From positions 3,162,001 to 3,226,000 of the forward strand of contig NZ_CP025066.1 of NCBI RefSeq assembly GCF_002952775.1: a DNA stretch of 64,000 nucleotides. The letters run 5' to 3'. The translations under genes were made by a program, and so were the position numbers. The notes below the pieces were generated by a model. That model had not been told where the DNA came from and made no database searches. It saw only the letters and a list, made by a program, of their open reading frames with translations. Source of the stretch: Halalkaliarchaeum desulfuricum. Lineage in GTDB: Archaea > Halobacteriota > Halobacteria > Halobacteriales > Haloferacaceae. Numbering within the stretch: the first letter of the stretch is position 1; each line of letters starts with the position of its first letter. Below, in pieces: positions 934-38,550 of this stretch.

Positions 934-1496
934 AAATTTATACCGGGCGCGGCGACGACGGAATGACCGACCTCGGAAACGCCACCCGCGTTTCGAAAAC
1001 CTCCGATCGGATCGAGGCGTACGGCACCGTCGACGAGGCCAACGCCCTCGTCGGAACGATCCGTCCGACGGGCTATGACGACGTCGACGAGACGCTTTCG
1101 GCGATCCAGAACCACCTCCACATCATCCAGGCCGACTTCGCCAGCCCCGGTACCGACGGGACGGATGGCGGCGAGGGAAGCCACGCGGAGGGTAGCGCCA
1201 CCCGGATCCGCGAGGACCACGTCGATCAACTGGAGGAGTGGATCGACGCGTTCGACGAGGAACTCGACCCCCTCGAGTCGTTCGTTCTCCCGGGTGGAAG
1301 CGAGTCGGGGGCGCGGCTCCATCACGCCCGGACAGTCGTCCGTCGAGCCGAGCGCCGGGCGGTCGCGCTCGCGGCCGACGACCCGATAAACGAGGAGGCG
1401 ATCGTCTATCTCAACCGCCTTTCGGACGCCCTGTTCGTGTTCGCCCGGCTGGTCAACCGGCGCGACGGCGAACGCGAGGAGTCGCCGACGTACTAG
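930..1496 (+). CDS. Cob(I)alamin adenosyltransferase, PduO type
   Basis: A 188-residue ATP:cob(I)alamin adenosyltransferase, making adenosylcobalamin from reduced corrinoid and ATP. The N-terminal ATP-binding motif YTGRGDDGMTDLGN (residues 4-17) and the C-terminal helix with RRAERRAV and LNRLSDALFVFAR are typical of the trimeric PduO family, and the length is normal. An acidic insert around residues 72-95 is common in haloarchaeal copies. It is coupled through ATGA to the preceding glutaredoxin-like gene. A corrinoid-type RdhA-like protein lies 1.6 kb downstream, but RdhA enzymes use non-adenosylated cobamides, so a direct link is not implied. Confidence 0.93.
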   Translation: MKIYTGRGDDGMTDLGNATRVSKTSDRIEAYGTVDEANALVGTIRPTGYDDVDETLSAIQNHLHIIQADFASPGTDGTDGGEGSHAEGSATRIREDHVDQLEEWIDAFDEELDPLESFVLPGGSESGARLHHARTVVRRAERRAVALAADDPINEEAIVYLNRLSDALFVFARLVNRRDGEREESPTY

Positions 1497-1780
1497 CGGA
1501 CGATTGGGTCGAGGAGAAGTGTGACCGCCGGAACTCCACCGCAGACCGGCGATGAACCCGACGAGCCTGATCCAGCTCGACGCGTACTCGCTTTCGCAAG
1601 CTGTTTGCGTTATCCAAATACGGATCGCTCGAAACCCTTGTTTTGAAAGTTTGACTCGCCTGTACCTCCGATTTCCCAATAAAAAACCGCATAAAAGGCC
1701 ACCGTCTAGATACAGTCACGAACCACGGACCCGGATTGCCTTCAGCGACCGACAATGATCCCCCGGCTACAAAGTCACCA

Positions 1781-2593
1781 ATGACACCCGAACAGCGCAC
1801 TCGGAACACCGACGGCGGTACTGTCACGCGAGAAGTACTCCTCACGCGTTCTACCGACAGTGACCACGCGGAGCGTGATACTGAACTGCCAGTACCCGAA
1901 CTGGACACTCCGATTCCGGAACTTGCCGAACGGCTCCTGGCGACGAACGAACGACAGGTCCCCGTCAGCAATGGCGTCGAGTGCGTCGGTCACGTCTCCA
2001 TCACGAACGTCGTCCGGGCGATCGCCAGACGGGTTGTCACACTCGATGTCCCGGTTGCTGACGCGTACACCGACTCCGTCAACATCGTCTTTGCCGGGAC
2101 CCCTCTTCCGGTCGCAGTACGACAAATAACGAACGCTTCGGAATCATCCGCAATCGTCCTCGACGAGAACGGCGCTGCCGTCGGCATACTCACCGAGAAA
2201 GACGTCGTCGGCGCTGCTCGATTCACCCAGGGAGAACTGCGTTCGCCCGACCTCGAATATCGAGACGACGACCGTCAGTGGGAAGGCATCGAACTCGAGG
2301 TAAACGGTCCGATCCCGACCCTGACTATCGAACTTCCCGCGGTACCGGTCTCGGAGATTGTCTCCGAGGACGTTCCCACCGTCTCTGCCGACCGAAGCTG
2401 TACGGATGCTGCACAGCTCATGGTCTCGAAAGACGTCGATCAGGTGGCAGTACGGAAGCAGGAACAGCTCGTCGGGGTGCTCCGGGACCGTGACTTGCTG
2501 TACGCGCTGGTCGGCCGGAAGACCGGTCGAAAGGACGCACGAAAGGACGCACAAAAGAACGGACGAACGGCCGAACGAAAACGCGACGATTAA
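1781..2593 (+). CDS. CBS-domain protein
   Basis: About 270 residues with tandem CBS-type sensory segments: SSAIVLDENGAAVGILTEKDVV in the middle and VSEIVSEDVPTVSADRSCTDAA through LVGVLRDRDLLYAL near the C-terminus. CBS pairs bind adenosine nucleotides or act as intramolecular regulators. No catalytic domain is visible. The C-terminal 30 residues are a basic KDARKDAQKNGR-type repeat, unusual in an acidic proteome. The ATG at 1781 is preferred over an in-frame TTG at 1736. An AT-rich stretch with ATAAAAGG near 1690 may be the promoter, giving a 5' UTR of about 65 nt. Confidence 0.8.
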   Translation: MTPEQRTRNTDGGTVTREVLLTRSTDSDHAERDTELPVPELDTPIPELAERLLATNERQVPVSNGVECVGHVSITNVVRAIARRVVTLDVPVADAYTDSVNIVFAGTPLPVAVRQITNASESSAIVLDENGAAVGILTEKDVVGAARFTQGELRSPDLEYRDDDRQWEGIELEVNGPIPTLTIELPAVPVSEIVSEDVPTVSADRSCTDAAQLMVSKDVDQVAVRKQEQLVGVLRDRDLLYALVGRKTGRKDARKDAQKNGRTAERKRDD

Positions 2594-2622
2594 CTCGGCA
2601 CGCCAGGGAATCCAACGTATTC

Positions 2623-3108
2623 ATGACTCACACCACGAGACGGGCGCTGTTGGCGACCACGGCCGCAGTCGGGGCGTCGATAGCCGGCTGTCTGGGCGAC
2701 GCCACCGACGACTGGGCGGTCGAGGACACCGTTCCGGCGACAGCAGCGACGCTGTATCAGGGCCCGAACTGCAATTGCTGTGAGGTGTACGCCGACTACC
2801 TGGACGATCACCTCGACGGTGGGCTGGAGGTGGTCGTCACCGAGGATCTCGGTGCGATCAAGACGGAGCGCGGGATCGACGTCGATCTCCACTCGTGTCA
2901 CACCGTCGATTTCGACGGCTACGTCGTCGAAGGCCACGTTCCAGTCGAGGTAATCGTCCAGCTGTTCGAGGAGGGGCCCGACCTCGACGGCATCGCGCTG
3001 CCGGGCATGCCGTCGGGCTCCCCGGGGATGGGCGGCAGCAAGGACGAGACGTGGACGATCTACGGCTTCTCGGCCGACGAGAGTCCGACTGTCTACACGG
3101 AACTGTGA
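2623..3108 (+). CDS. DUF411 metal-binding-type lipoprotein
   Basis: A 161-residue secreted lipoprotein: an RR-containing hydrophobic leader ends in the lipobox IAGC (Cys23). The rest is a DUF411 domain: CNCC near residues 48-51, then HSCH at about 90-93 and GYVVEGHVP. DUF411 proteins often sit near copper-handling genes (family knowledge), and the Cys/His set here could bind a soft metal. Its stop overlaps an in-frame GTG of the following RdhA-like gene, and that gene's preferred ATG is only 50 nt on, so the two form one unit. What a DUF411 protein would do for an RdhA-like enzyme is unknown; metal or thiol delivery is only an inference. Confidence 0.82.
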   Translation: MTHTTRRALLATTAAVGASIAGCLGDATDDWAVEDTVPATAATLYQGPNCNCCEVYADYLDDHLDGGLEVVVTEDLGAIKTERGIDVDLHSCHTVDFDGYVVEGHVPVEVIVQLFEEGPDLDGIALPGMPSGSPGMGGSKDETWTIYGFSADESPTVYTEL

Positions 3109-3158
3109 CCCGATCCAGTACCGCCACGGGCCCCCGGCTCCCGGAGGGGCTCGCAGAG

Positions 3159-4757
3159 ATGGCCCAAAGCGAGGAGACGGTCGATCGCGAGGACGTCGCG
3201 GCGGTGTACGACGAACTGCTCGCGGAACTTGCGGACGCCGAGATCGATCGACGAACTCTTTTGAGTGTGTTCGCGGGCGGCGGCGGGCTCGCTGTGCTGA
3301 CGTCGCTTTTCGCCCAGCGGACGTTCGTCGGCGACGACGCCCAGTCGGGCCTGGAGGCGGTGCTCGAGGCGAGCGACGGGCCGCCCGGCGTTCGGTACGT
3401 CGACGATCCCACCTACGAGGTCGACGACGACGTCTACGAACGGCCACCGAACGAGACCGACTTCCGATTCCGCGGCGCCATCGCCAGATGGATCGACGAG
3501 TCGGACGGTGGTGTCGCCGACGAGGGGGAGTTGCTCGATCGGGGACTCGAGACGGCGGAGACGTCGTATGCGATCCCGAATCCCGCCAACGAGGCGGTCG
3601 AAGCCGCCGATCCCGGACTCGGACGGGCCAATCGGGCGCTGGAGGCCGCCCTCGGGAGCGTCAGCGGCGCGATCCAGGGGTTCCGCTTCGGACGCACTGA
3701 CGACCGGCTCGACATTCAGAAACACGTCGCCGAGGGGAGCGGTTTCGCCACGAGGGAGTTGGTCGACCGTGAGCCGACCGTCGAGGATCCCGATCGCCTG
3801 CGGTCGCTTTTGGGCACCGTCGCCCGGCTCGCCGGCTGTGCGGACGTCGGCGTCGGCGAACTCGACGAGCGGTGGATCTACTCCCACCGGGGGGACGGCG
3901 CGCCGATCGTCTTCGAAGACGTCGACGAGCCGGTTCTGGACGACGACCGGACGGTGATCCCCGAGCGGTTCGACCGCGTCGTCGTCGGCGTCTCCGAGAT
4001 GCCGCTTTCGCTCACCCGCACTTCGCCGACCCCGGTTTCGGCGGCGTCGGGGGCGCTCGGATACAGTCGGATGGCCACCGGGGCGGTCGCCCTGGCAACG
4101 TGGATCCGGGCGATGGGCTACGGGGCGATTCCCGCATTGAACGACACCGGGCTGAGCGTCCCCATGGCGATCGACGCCGGCCTCGGGGAGGCGGGTCGAC
4201 ACGGGCGGCTCATCCACCCGCAGTTCGGGTCGAACGTCCGGCTGTTCAAGGTACTCACCGACATGCCGGCCACCGTCGACCCGTACGTCGAGTTCGGCGT
4301 CGGCGCGTTCTGCGAGACGTGCCGGATCTGTGTCGAGAACTGTCCGTCGAATACGATCCCCTACGGGAGTCGGACGTGGGAATACGAGGGCGAGGCGCCG
4401 TCTTCGTGGCGCGGTGCGACCGACGAGCCGTGGGACTCGACGAAGGCAAACGGCGTCCGGAAGTGGTACGAGAAGCCGAAAACCTGTCTCCGCTTCTGGA
4501 TGGAGAACGGGTCGAGCTGTTCGAACTGTATCGTCACCTGTCCGTTCACCCAGGGACGGGGGCGACTGGCGGAGCTTTTCACCGTCCTCGCCGGGCGTTC
4601 CGAACGGATCGATCGGCAACTGGTCGATCTCGCCGGCGGCCATGCGAGCGGCCGGTCGGCGTTCGGCGACGTGGGCCTTCACCCGCCGGAAACGGCGTGG
4701 GATCGGACGTACCTGCCCTACGGGCTCTCACAGGATCCGGATCTCCCCCGGGAATAG
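3159..4757 (+). CDS. Reductive-dehalogenase-like (RdhA family) corrinoid/4Fe-4S protein
   Basis: A 532-residue protein with the RdhA architecture. The corrinoid-binding core contains LGYSRMA and GYGAIPALNDTG, providing the Tyr and Asn that match the catalytic pair of RdhA enzymes, followed by GLGEAGRHGRLIHPQFG. Two 4Fe-4S motifs follow: CETCRICVENCP (CX2CX2CX3CP), then Cys with CSNCIVTCP. An RR-plus-hydrophobic stretch at about residues 30-50 (DRRTLLSVFAGGGG) resembles a Tat signal set unusually far in. No RdhB-type anchor gene is adjacent. GTG 3105, overlapping the upstream stop, is an alternative start; ATG 3159 has GGAGGGG upstream. Substrate unknown; it could be a corrinoid oxidoreductase not acting on organohalides. 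Confidence 0.82.
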   Translation: MAQSEETVDREDVAAVYDELLAELADAEIDRRTLLSVFAGGGGLAVLTSLFAQRTFVGDDAQSGLEAVLEASDGPPGVRYVDDPTYEVDDDVYERPPNETDFRFRGAIARWIDESDGGVADEGELLDRGLETAETSYAIPNPANEAVEAADPGLGRANRALEAALGSVSGAIQGFRFGRTDDRLDIQKHVAEGSGFATRELVDREPTVEDPDRLRSLLGTVARLAGCADVGVGELDERWIYSHRGDGAPIVFEDVDEPVLDDDRTVIPERFDRVVVGVSEMPLSLTRTSPTPVSAASGALGYSRMATGAVALATWIRAMGYGAIPALNDTGLSVPMAIDAGLGEAGRHGRLIHPQFGSNVRLFKVLTDMPATVDPYVEFGVGAFCETCRICVENCPSNTIPYGSRTWEYEGEAPSSWRGATDEPWDSTKANGVRKWYEKPKTCLRFWMENGSSCSNCIVTCPFTQGRGRLAELFTVLAGRSERIDRQLVDLAGGHASGRSAFGDVGLHPPETAWDRTYLPYGLSQDPDLPRE

Positions 4758-4794
4758 TGAGTGACGGCGTTCTCGAGAACCGTGCCGGCTCCGA

Positions 4795-5241
4795 TCAGCA
4801 GTGCCCGCCTTCCTCGTGGTATTCGTCGTGATACTCGTCGTGGTGGTCGGCGTGGTCGCCGTCGTGGTGGTCGGCGTGGTCGCCGTCGTGGTGGTCGGCG
4901 TGGTCGCCGTCGTGGTGGTCAGCGTAATCGCCGTCGTGGTGGCCAGCGTGGTGGTCGGCGTGGTCACCGTCGTGGTGGTCAGCGTGGTGGTCGGCGTGGT
5001 CACCGTCGTGGTGCTCGGCGTGATTGTGGTCGCTCATGTGTTCGGACATCCATTCGACTGCGTCACCGCCCATGTGCTGGTTCATCCAGGTGATCGCATC
5101 GTTGCCCATGTGATCTGTCGCGTTTTCACCGTACAGTGCGTCATCGGCCGTGTTCGCGTCCGCGCTCGCGAGGCCGATCGCGCCAACGAGCGCGATGACG
5201 ACTGTCAGAGTCAGTATCAGCCGGATCGTTGTAGACTTCAT
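4795..5241 (-). CDS. Secreted His/Asp-rich repeat protein
   Basis: A 148-residue protein with an N-terminal hydrophobic signal peptide (about residues 7-27), a short helical segment containing MGNDAITWMNQHMGGDAVEWM, then about 70 residues of near-perfect repeats of the type HADHHDGD, ending EEGGHC. More than a third of the tail is histidine. Such tails bind transition metals (Zn, Ni, Cu) in known His-rich proteins; binding here is inferred. The repeats are 24-bp DNA units on the plus strand. It is convergent with the RdhA-like gene, only 37 bp away, so it is not in that operon. Confidence 0.75.
   Translation of the reverse strand: MKSTTIRLILTLTVVIALVGAIGLASADANTADDALYGENATDHMGNDAITWMNQHMGGDAVEWMSEHMSDHNHAEHHDGDHADHHADHHDGDHADHHAGHHDGDYADHHDGDHADHHDGDHADHHDGDHADHHDEYHDEYHEEGGHC
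4828..5032. repeat. 24-bp tandem repeats within the His-rich gene
   Basis: Plus-strand units of the form GTCGTGGTGGTCGGCGTGGTC recur about eight times, with small variants (CAGCGTGG, CAGCGTAATC). Each unit encodes HADHHDGD on the minus strand. Because units are multiples of three bases, copy-number change would alter repeat length without shifting frame. Confidence 0.85.
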
Positions 5242-5601
5242 TGGTCTTCGACTATCCGTATGCCCTTTGAGTGGTTAGCTCCCAGGACGTGAACTGTCTC
5301 CTCAGAACGTTCGAGAGCGTTTATAATTGGTTCTAAACGTTTCCCTGCGGAGAAACCGTTCATCTCGCCGGAATTCCGGCGTTTCGGCCCGGTTCTGGTG
5401 TGGACGCCCGTTTTCGACCGGTCGCGCTCGATCGATACCGGTACTGCGCCGTGGAAACGCCTCGTGCCTCCCCAGCCTCGGCGGCCCACGGGCGGGCCGC
5501 CTCCCTCGCGCGCCGGCGACGGCACGGAGGCCGCCGCCGATCGCGCGCCAACGGCTATGAGATTCCCTTTATAAGATAACGGGATTCACGTCGGGTGCCG
5601 T
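5242..5601. other. Intergenic region, 360 bp
   Basis: No convincing gene: open frames on both strands are poor in haloarchaeal codon pattern. It contains AT-rich TATA-like stretches (TTTATAATT near 5320, TTTATAAGA near 5570, TTTATAAATTTT near 5601) between very GC-rich tracts, including the imperfect inverted repeat GGCGGCCC/GGGCCGCC near 5480-5502. It probably holds the upstream promoter of the His-rich gene and the end of the regulator transcript. Confidence 0.5.
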
Positions 5602-6243
5602 TTATAAATTTTGATCGGTGCGCCGGGAGTCGGCCAGTTCGTCGGCGGGATACACCCGATAGGTCCGCCCCTGTCGTTCCCGATACAACAGCCCCCGCTT
5701 TTCCAGGTCGGTCACGGTCTGGCTCACCTTGCTCTTCGAGAAGTCCGACCGGTCGCGGATCTCGATCTGGGTGAGTCCCGGCGATTCGACGACGGGTTCG
5801 AGGATCCGCCGTTCGTCTTCGGGGAGGTAATCGAGCGGTCGACGCTGGACGGGGGTCGGATTCGAGGTGGTGTCGCCGGTCGTATTGGATGTGGTCCCGC
5901 CGGGCGCGTCCGGTTCGGGACCCGGAGCCGCGCCGTCGTTCGTCTCTGGTGACCCTGCATCGAGCGTGGACTCCCCGGAATCGAACGCGGGTTCGGAATC
6001 GAACACCTCTCCTCGAACGAACACGTACACACCCCCGATCACGCTGGCGACGAGGACGCTCCCGAGGAGATACCACACCGGGTGGACGCCGTGCAAGAGT
6101 CCGACCGACGCGTCCATGTGATGGCCCATCGCATCGTCTATTGTTCGACTCGCCCGATAGGCCTGCCAGGCGGTCCAGACGCCGACGAGCAGGACGGCTC
6201 CGATCAGGGCGGCGGCCGCGGCGTCGGCGGTTGTGCGATTCAC
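5602..6243 (-). CDS. Membrane-anchored winged-helix regulator
   Basis: A 213-residue protein with two N-terminal membrane segments (about residues 8-28 and 56-77), a Pro/Gly/Thr-rich acidic linker (about 85-130), and a C-terminal winged-helix domain: YLPEDERRILEPVVES, then LTQIEIRDRSDFSKSKVSQTVTDLEKRGLLYRE, ending in a YRVYP wing. Haloarchaea have many proteins of this layout that may sense at the membrane and bind DNA directly; the ligand is unknown. It is divergent from the gene at 6354, and two inverted repeats lie in the shared upstream region. Confidence 0.82.
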   Translation of the reverse strand: MNRTTADAAAAALIGAVLLVGVWTAWQAYRASRTIDDAMGHHMDASVGLLHGVHPVWYLLGSVLVASVIGGVYVFVRGEVFDSEPAFDSGESTLDAGSPETNDGAAPGPEPDAPGGTTSNTTGDTTSNPTPVQRRPLDYLPEDERRILEPVVESPGLTQIEIRDRSDFSKSKVSQTVTDLEKRGLLYRERQGRTYRVYPADELADSRRTDQNL

Positions 6244-32015: not shown

Positions 32016-33470
32016 TTACACGTATTCCACAATCCGCACCATTCCCGTCTCCATGTGGTAGAGGTGATGGCAGTGGAACAGCCACTTGCCCGAGTTGTCG
32101 GCGACGAAGTCGAACTCGACCTGGCCCATGTGTCCGGGAACCGTGATGGTGTCCTTGACGACGTCGCCGGCCTGGAAGTGGTGGCCGTGGAGGTGCATCG
32201 GGTGACGCATCGGGCTCCGGTTTCGCACCCGGACCCGGACGTGTTCGCCCTCCTGGATTCGGATCGGATCCGCGTCCGGGAACGCCTGACCGTTTATCGT
32301 CCACTCGCCGTCGTCGCCGGAACCGCCCATCATCCCCATCGCCCCGCCCGCCGAGAGTTCGAGGTCGATGGTGCGGTCGGGTGACCCTCCAACGCCCGGA
32401 GCCGGCGCCAGCGACCGGAGGTCGGCGTACTGGAGCCGGTGGCCGCCGATTGCACCCTCGTCGATGCCGTCAGTCGCGTCCTCGTATGCGAGGACCGCAC
32501 GACCGGCGGGCGCGACCGAATCGACCGGCGCGATCCGGATCGGCCACCGACCGGGCGAGTCGCCCTCGACGACGATGTCGTAGCGTTCGCCCATCCCGAT
32601 CTCGAGGGTGTCGACGGTCACGGGGTCGACTGCCGGTCCGTCGGCGTGAGTCACCGTCAGTCTGTGGTCGTCGATGCCGACGGCATACATCGTCGCCGCC
32701 GCCGCATTGATGAGCCGAAGCCTGACGCGTTCGCCCTCGGTGATTTCGAACTCCGCGGGATCGCTCGGGAGCGCGCCGTTGACGAGCGTTCCACTCGCCG
32801 GCGGAGCACCCGGGAACGAGCCCTCCATTCCACCCATACCCCCCATTCCGTCCATCCCGTCCGCGGTTTCGACCCGCGGCTCCTCGGGAAGGTATTCGTC
32901 GAGGATCAGCGTGTGCTCGGCGTCGTACTCCACGTGCGGGTTCCGTTCCTCGACCACGAGCGGGCCGAGCAGCTCTCGATCCAGTTGGAGTCCGACGTGA
33001 CTGTGATACCAGTGGGTCCCGGCCGGTTCGGCGTCGAACTCGTAGACGAACTCATCACCAGGGGCGATCGCTTCCTGGGTGACGCCCGGGACGCCGTCCA
33101 TCGCGTTGTCGCCGCGGACGGTCATGCCGTGCCAGTGGACAGTCGTCTCCTCGGGGAGGTCGTTTTCGACGACCACACGGACGCGTTCGCCCTCAACTGC
33201 CCGTATTTCGGGACCGGGATACGCACCGTTGTACGTCCAGCCGTCGTAGCTGTCGCCGCCGGCGATGTCGATTTCGTGTTCGCTTGCAGTCAGGCGGTAC
33301 GTGCGGTCGGGATCGCCGTACTCCGGCTCCGGATACGCCGAAACGGTCCCGGCGTCACCGTCGCTGCGAAGCGCAACGCCGACGGCACCCAGTCCCGCCA
33401 CGCCCGCCGCCCCCGCGCCGATCTGGAGCGCCCGGCGTCGACCGATCGGCGAGCCAGCCTCACGGCTCAC
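32016..33470 (-). CDS. Multicopper oxidase, Tat-exported
   Basis: A 484-residue three-cupredoxin oxidase, coupling oxidation of phenols, Cu(I) or similar to O2 reduction at the cell surface. All copper motifs are present: HWHGM (about residues 112-116), HWYHSH, HPMHLHGHHF and the C-terminal HCHHLYHMETGM with the type-1 Cys and Met. A Met/Gly-rich insert (MDGMGGMGGMEG) resembles the methionine-rich regions of cuprous oxidases such as CueO. The leader GRRRALQIGAGAAG is a Tat signal. The GTG start overlaps the stop of a 17-codon upstream mini-ORF. Confidence 0.93.
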   Translation of the reverse strand: MSREAGSPIGRRRALQIGAGAAGVAGLGAVGVALRSDGDAGTVSAYPEPEYGDPDRTYRLTASEHEIDIAGGDSYDGWTYNGAYPGPEIRAVEGERVRVVVENDLPEETTVHWHGMTVRGDNAMDGVPGVTQEAIAPGDEFVYEFDAEPAGTHWYHSHVGLQLDRELLGPLVVEERNPHVEYDAEHTLILDEYLPEEPRVETADGMDGMGGMGGMEGSFPGAPPASGTLVNGALPSDPAEFEITEGERVRLRLINAAAATMYAVGIDDHRLTVTHADGPAVDPVTVDTLEIGMGERYDIVVEGDSPGRWPIRIAPVDSVAPAGRAVLAYEDATDGIDEGAIGGHRLQYADLRSLAPAPGVGGSPDRTIDLELSAGGAMGMMGGSGDDGEWTINGQAFPDADPIRIQEGEHVRVRVRNRSPMRHPMHLHGHHFQAGDVVKDTITVPGHMGQVEFDFVADNSGKWLFHCHHLYHMETGMVRIVEYV

Positions 33471-38343: not shown

Positions 38344-38550
38344 TCACTTGGTGCGATCGAGGTAAAAGCCGACCGCGGCCATCAGGAAGACGAACGCCAC
38401 GAGCAGGCCGACGATAGCCATCGCGCCGGCTTCCGGCAGCGAGTCGCCGCCGTCGTAAAAGATCCCGACCCCGACCAGCGCAGCGAGAAACACGGCGACA
38501 GCGGAGATCGAAACGATCGTCTTCCGACGCACCTCCTCGTCGATTTCCAT
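38344..38550 (-). CDS. Small membrane protein, DUF7472-like
   Basis: A 68-residue protein with an acidic N-terminus (MEIDEEVRRKTIV) and two transmembrane helices (about residues 11-31 and 43-63), matching a small conserved haloarchaeal family of unknown function. It is convergent with priL and divergent from the SWIM-protein gene. Confidence 0.72.
   Translation of the reverse strand: MEIDEEVRRKTIVSISAVAVFLAALVGVGIFYDGGDSLPEAGAMAIVGLLVAFVFLMAAVGFYLDRTK

Follow-up and report, generated by a model that had tools for sequence, protein, structure and literature searches.

An RdhA-family gene in a haloarchaeon with a predicted intact catalytic core and no detected RdhB partner

Results

Within a 64-kb stretch of a single-contig 3.3-Mb haloarchaeal genome (G000:C1:3162001-3226000; hereafter 'the window'), a gene of the RdhA family lies directly behind a DUF411 lipoprotein gene and is followed by two genes on the opposite strand, one for a secreted His/Met-rich protein and one for a membrane-anchored winged-helix protein. 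The RdhA family comprises vitamin-B12 reductive dehalogenases, which remove halogens from organic molecules. The genes and the block that contains them are as follows:

930–1496, + strand: PduO-type cob(I)alamin adenosyltransferase (TIGR00636, 179.7 bits), in the conserved chromosomal flank and present in the sister species G318 too
1490–6151, no strand: block missing from G318, where about 115 bp replace it and the HTH (winged-helix) gene survives as a 5′ remnant
2623–3108, + strand: DUF411 (CopG-type) lipoprotein, stop overlapping the rdhA start (PF04214, 77 bits; PDB 6wis, E = 1.5e-18)
3105–4757, + strand: rdhA, RdhA-family corrinoid/2×[4Fe-4S] reductase, 550 aa, GTG start (TIGR02486, PF13486 and PceA match; start by conservation)
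4795–5241, − strand: secreted His/Met-rich repeat protein of metal-binding type, convergent with rdhA
5602–6243, − strand: membrane-anchored MarR/ArsR-like winged-helix protein (PF24034, MarR_2)

A first-pass annotation of this DNA had described an RdhA-like corrinoid/Fe-S protein, and profile and structure-database searches bear this out. The protein exceeds the curated TIGR02486 cut-off in an NCBIfam scan (173.4 against 160.35 bits) and narrowly that of PF13486 in a Pfam protein scan (25.1 against 24.3 bits), while a PDB sequence search retrieved Sulfurospirillum PceA (4uqu, E = 1e-50), Desulfitobacterium PceA (8q4h, E = 2e-37) and, more weakly, NpRdhA. The Pfam and NCBIfam scans recognized RDH and 4Fe-4S as its only domains; a fused flavin/2Fe-2S reductase domain of the NpRdhA type was sought in them and not found. 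Unlike the protein scan, a six-frame PF13486 search of the genome returned no match; calls of absence are therefore based on TIGR02486 and the protein itself.

The start codon had been placed at ATG 3159. We find GTG 3105 more likely, since the residues preceding that ATG, LPEGLAEM, are conserved in the two nearest relatives (LPEGLQEM and FSEGLEEM). The overlapping stop/GTG that had been remarked on is then the real start of rdhA, GTG 3105 overlapping the DUF411 TGA (3106–3108).

Features within rdhA, all on the + strand, are:

3240–3320: twin-arginine plus hydrophobic segment (R49 R50 TLL...), kept in a three-member clade (alignments)
4062–4064: Y320, equivalent to the PceA proton donor Tyr246 (PceA alignment; role, PMC5500849)
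4140–4142: N346, equivalent to PceA Asn272 (PceA alignment; PMC5500849)
4239–4241: R379, equivalent to PceA Arg305 (PceA alignment; PMC10624902)
4311–4343: Fe-S motif 1, CX2CX2CX3CP (C403, C406, C409, C413)
4485–4541: Fe-S motif 2, CX10CX2CX3CP (C461, C472, C475, C479)
4563–4670: degenerate menaquinone/RdhB pocket (W487R, H489A, R493T and Y522D relative to the relatives, with a 7-residue insertion)

The Tyr of GYSRMA, the Asn of ALNDTG and both Fe-S motifs named in the first-pass annotation are all present in the frame ending at 4757, with eight of eight cluster cysteines. In PceA, Tyr246 donates the proton and Asn272 lines the substrate entrance (PMC5500849), and an Arg305-type arginine stabilizes the tyrosyl intermediate (PMC10624902). 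All three residues have equivalents here by sequence, falling in an ungapped part of the alignment with a constant offset of 74. An AlphaFold model built from two sequences had a pLDDT of 33.6, too poor to judge the pocket, so we base this equivalence solely on the alignment. By its sequence the gene genuinely belongs to the RdhA family, and its catalytic core is intact.

RdhA was found in 2 of 391 haloarchaeal genomes, the window genome and G224 from another family of the order, and in none of the 169 further genomes from the host's own family. A scan of genome_contigs added a further close relative in Candidatus Methanohalarchaeum thermophilum. When placed in a tree alongside RdhAs of archaea and bacteria, these three proteins form a clade (support 100/99), with the window RdhA 39–43% identical to the other two and its branch length 0.61 against their 0.71 and 0.77; the window protein nests among RdhAs that have RdhB partners, away from short archaeal RdhA/QueG-like proteins. 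No near orthologue is available for dN/dS. Viral_contigs yielded no RdhA relatives, and plasmid matches were bacterial RdhAs only, at <30% identity. A literature search with incomplete coverage turned up no report of a haloarchaeal rdhA; archaeal rdhA is mentioned in Asgard archaea (PMC6737245). A relative of Methanohalarchaeum (G409, L082:41-2865, − strand) carries two tandem RdhAs that belong to a different clade and have truncated C-termini.

The far-in position of the Tat-like segment, noted from the sequence earlier, stands: the RR and a single hydrophobic stretch (by reading of the sequence) lie about 49 residues in, farther from the N-terminus than is usual. It is not an oddity of this gene; all three clade members share an N-terminal extension carrying the twin-arginine segment, which makes it a feature of the clade.

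The substrate side of the pocket gives some reason to ask whether this could be an RdhA-fold corrinoid/Fe-S reductase acting on something other than organohalides. Two PceA substrate-pocket positions are altered in the alignment (Y382 to S471 and T242 to G316), so we name no substrate; the substrates of RdhA homologues are in any case unreadable from sequence, and QueG-type profiles match weakly at 39 bits. That score is far below the 173 bits for RDH, however, while the Tyr, Asn, Arg and complete second cluster are RdhA-like and the tree position is with RdhB-partnered enzymes, all of which makes a non-organohalide substrate very improbable in our estimate.

In both relatives a short two-helix, PceB-like membrane protein is encoded directly downstream of rdhA and, through a G[AS][YF]xE loop, aligns with the PceB/RdhB-type product of the small gene behind rdhA in Dehalococcoides and Sulfurospirillum. 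In G224 this rdhB is followed by NapG-like and NapH-like proteins, whose best matches are below curated cut-offs, and the order rdhA, rdhB, NapG/NapH-like resembles that of the Sulfurospirillum region. The G224 cluster (L004:10797-14259, − strand), beyond which lies an HTH regulator gene, is a haloarchaeal candidate for complete organohalide respiration. In the G224 RdhA (L002:1489-3090, − strand) Asp replaces one Cys in the second Fe-S motif (TNDSACMNACPF), and the distal cluster of this protein may therefore be unusual despite the RdhB.

The absence of an RdhB next to the window rdhA, stated in the first-pass annotation, was confirmed and extended. None was detected genome-wide with the RdhB of the nearest relative (G224) as query, a search in which a divergent protein could be missed, and the RdhB-type loop motif occurs in no plausible small membrane protein within 84 kb of rdhA. 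Because RdhB is short and divergent, with little sequence shared even between the RdhBs of the two relatives, one could have gone unseen. At the sensitivity used, neither a full-length NapH nor NapG/NapH-like genes were found in the genome. One candidate at 38344–38550 (E = 0.008) was rejected: this membrane ORF of 68 aa lies at a distance from rdhA and has no RdhB motif.

The C-terminal part of the protein differs in the region that meets PceB in a known complex. In the PceA2B2 structure menaquinone sits between two C-terminal PceA helices and PceB, and H495, R499, D515 and Y520 are among the pocket residues named for DhPceA (PMC10624902). With positions fixed by the 8q4h sequence (CSWNKVETWNHDVARI...FDEWFGY), H495, R499 and Y520 align to A489, T493 and D522 of the window RdhA; His, Arg and Tyr are kept in both relatives, and the His and Tyr in seven of seven comparison RdhAs. 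A three-way count of unique changes (window/Methanohalarchaeum/G224) gave 18/30/30 in the core and 13/5/7 in the C-terminal domain, a contrast (Fisher p = 0.011) drawn post hoc after the pattern had been seen and from few sites. By identity to outgroups, the window protein ranks first of the three in the core and last in the C-terminal domain. Together these comparisons indicate that the core is not decaying and that change is concentrated at the RdhB/menaquinone region; as judged from the alignments, the catalytic core is no less conserved than those of the relatives, and residues of the RdhB/menaquinone pocket are lost. A frameshift behind the degenerate C-terminus was rejected on inspection, the other frames giving no better match. 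Across archaeal loci the evidence for a strict tie between RdhB and the pocket is suggestive at most: the pocket is retained in at least four other archaeal RdhAs whose short flanks show no RdhB. Another archaeal RdhA group lacks the entire C-terminal domain.

These data bear on whether the enzyme could still serve canonical organohalide respiration with an unrecognized membrane anchor encoded elsewhere. Such an anchor would be short and divergent, the nearest relatives do have RdhB (and G224 also the putative quinol-oxidizing NapG/NapH-like proteins), and the final residues of the window RdhA, LPYGLSQDPDL, still resemble the C-termini of the relatives. With the pocket His, Arg and Tyr replaced by A, T and D, and with RdhB and NapH not found genome-wide at the sensitivity used, we nevertheless consider this unlikely.

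The sister species G318, the only one compared, lacks the whole block and retains a 5′ remnant of the winged-helix gene, which suggests that it lost the block by deletion; the arrival of rdhA can consequently not be dated. The deletion site is filled by about 115 bp of unrelated sequence (G318 L070:8316-8430), possibly the remnant of a mobile element. Absence of the block from G318, the extreme rarity of RdhA in haloarchaea and the loss of both pocket and partner could also be read as signs of a gene becoming a pseudogene, its function gone after RdhB was lost. Against such decay, the 550-codon frame is intact with all catalytic and cluster residues kept, its GC3 (0.84) is like that of neighbouring genes, its core holds fewer unique changes than those of the relatives and its branch is no longer than theirs, and we judge this explanation improbable.

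The DUF411 lipoprotein was confirmed as the gene preceding rdhA. Its CNCC aligns to the CxCC copper motif of PDB 6wis/6wje. Structure 6WIS is that of CopG, which has a thioredoxin fold, holds a tetranuclear copper cluster through its CxCC and has a genetic link to copper export (PMC7558416). Among 145 haloarchaeal genomes, 29 (about a fifth) carry DUF411, one match (G075) being doubtful, and the loci examined place it beside heavy-metal/copper P-type ATPases (L024–L026), a multicopper oxidase (L043) or halocyanins (L035, L037). Elsewhere in the window, 33001–33470 (− strand) encodes the N-terminal part of a multicopper-oxidase-like protein.

The genes on the other side of rdhA have similar associations. 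The His/Met-rich protein has HHDGDHAD-type repeats and ends in Cys; it has a weak homologue beside DUF411 in G105 and beside the HTH (winged-helix) gene in G045 and G224, and homologues of the winged-helix protein lie near Cu-ATPases in G105 and G045. In G105 the DUF411, His/Met-rich secreted and membrane winged-helix genes are neighbours, an ArsP-type permease and a copper ATPase are encoded nearby, and rdhA is absent; the winged-helix gene differs from the window in its orientation relative to the His/Met-rich gene, so the two loci are not strictly collinear. Because G105 has these neighbours without rdhA, rdhA looks inserted, and the simplest reading of the gene order is that it entered a copper locus between the DUF411 and His/Met-rich genes. 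In several haloarchaea short His/Met-rich homologues adjoin the same winged-helix gene, once directly after a copper ATPase gene.

The earlier suggestion that DUF411 and RdhA are coupled as a functional unit was not supported. A pair of this kind, in which the CopG-type protein would feed electrons to RdhA, protect it or regulate it at the outer face of the membrane, has some appeal: the stop/start overlap (GTGA) makes co-translation likely, the missing RdhB calls for another redox partner, and a redox-active role has been proposed for the copper protein CopG (PMC7558416). But DUF411 belongs to the CopG copper family, is widespread in haloarchaea that have no rdhA and sits in copper loci elsewhere, it is absent beside the rdhA of G224 and of Methanohalarchaeum, where RdhB is directly downstream instead, and the window is the sole case among the DUF411 loci examined, no other genome searched keeping the pair. 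We regard a functional pair as quite improbable, and the adjacency is most likely an accident of location.

Discussion

Our preferred reading, to which we assign a probability of roughly 60%, is that the window encodes a catalytically intact, RdhB-independent RdhA from a formerly RdhB-dependent lineage, lying within a copper locus with DUF411 as a neighbour by location. Descent from an RdhB-dependent, respiratory-type RdhA is most likely, since the two other clade members have RdhB; the lineage would have lost RdhB and the C-terminal menaquinone/RdhB pocket and kept the catalytic core, and rdhA is probably co-transcribed with the DUF411 (CopG) gene owing to location, not function.

Under this preferred reading, RdhA would either leave the cytoplasm through Tat or stay anchored in the membrane via an N-terminal segment that is not cleaved, and would bind a cobamide, whose supply is plausible given that the genome encodes CobQ/CbiP, CbiA/CobB and the PduO-type adenosyltransferase. 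We infer that single electrons from a donor other than menaquinol-RdhB would reach the Co(II)/Co(I) cobamide by way of the distal and proximal [4Fe-4S] clusters; Co(I) would then cleave the carbon–halogen bond, with Y320 as putative proton donor and R379 stabilizing Y320, to give R-H and halide. The likely role would be the removal of natural organohalides rather than energy-conserving organohalide respiration. A bolder version, which we think very unlikely, is that without a menaquinol/RdhB route RdhA works as an extracytoplasmic corrinoid reductase with another donor, possibly the co-expressed CopG, so that copper handling would be linked to dehalogenation.

Among known systems, Sulfurospirillum PceA (4uqu) and Desulfitobacterium PceA2B2 (8q4h) are alike with the window RdhA in catalytic domain, Tyr246/Asn272/Arg305 equivalents, [4Fe-4S] motifs and twin-arginine segment; the window protein differs in having no RdhB detected in its genome, in the lost pocket residues, in its long N-terminal extension and in the two substrate-pocket positions. 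The rdhA-rdhB-napGH-like genes of G224 and rdhAB of Methanohalarchaeum thermophilum, although of the same clade and with the same extension, have RdhB directly downstream, a retained pocket and no DUF411 alongside. NpRdhA (4ras), a catabolic cytoplasmic enzyme, works without RdhB and has the catalytic domain in common over about 115 residues. It carries a reductase domain fused to it and lacks a twin-arginine segment, whereas the window protein has the twin-arginine segment and no reductase domain. RdhA/RdhB hybrids, which likewise have no separate rdhB gene, carry three N-terminal TM helices and no Tat motif (PMC6797604), in contrast to the single hydrophobic stretch after the RR here. The DUF411 neighbour shares with CopG (6WIS) the CxCC motif, CHT and GMPxGSPGM, as well as copper-locus neighbours in other haloarchaea, and is unlike it in being a haloarchaeal lipoprotein whose stop overlaps the rdhA start. 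An operon-like overlap is, by itself, no proof of functional partnership.

Halogenated organics arise naturally in salt lakes (PMC7284496), and the window RdhA is a lead to a salt-tolerant reductive dehalogenase. Of the three RdhAs from hypersaline archaea that make up this clade, two have RdhB and the third has apparently lost it together with the docking pocket; the clade offers a natural comparison for the contribution of RdhB and the quinone pocket.
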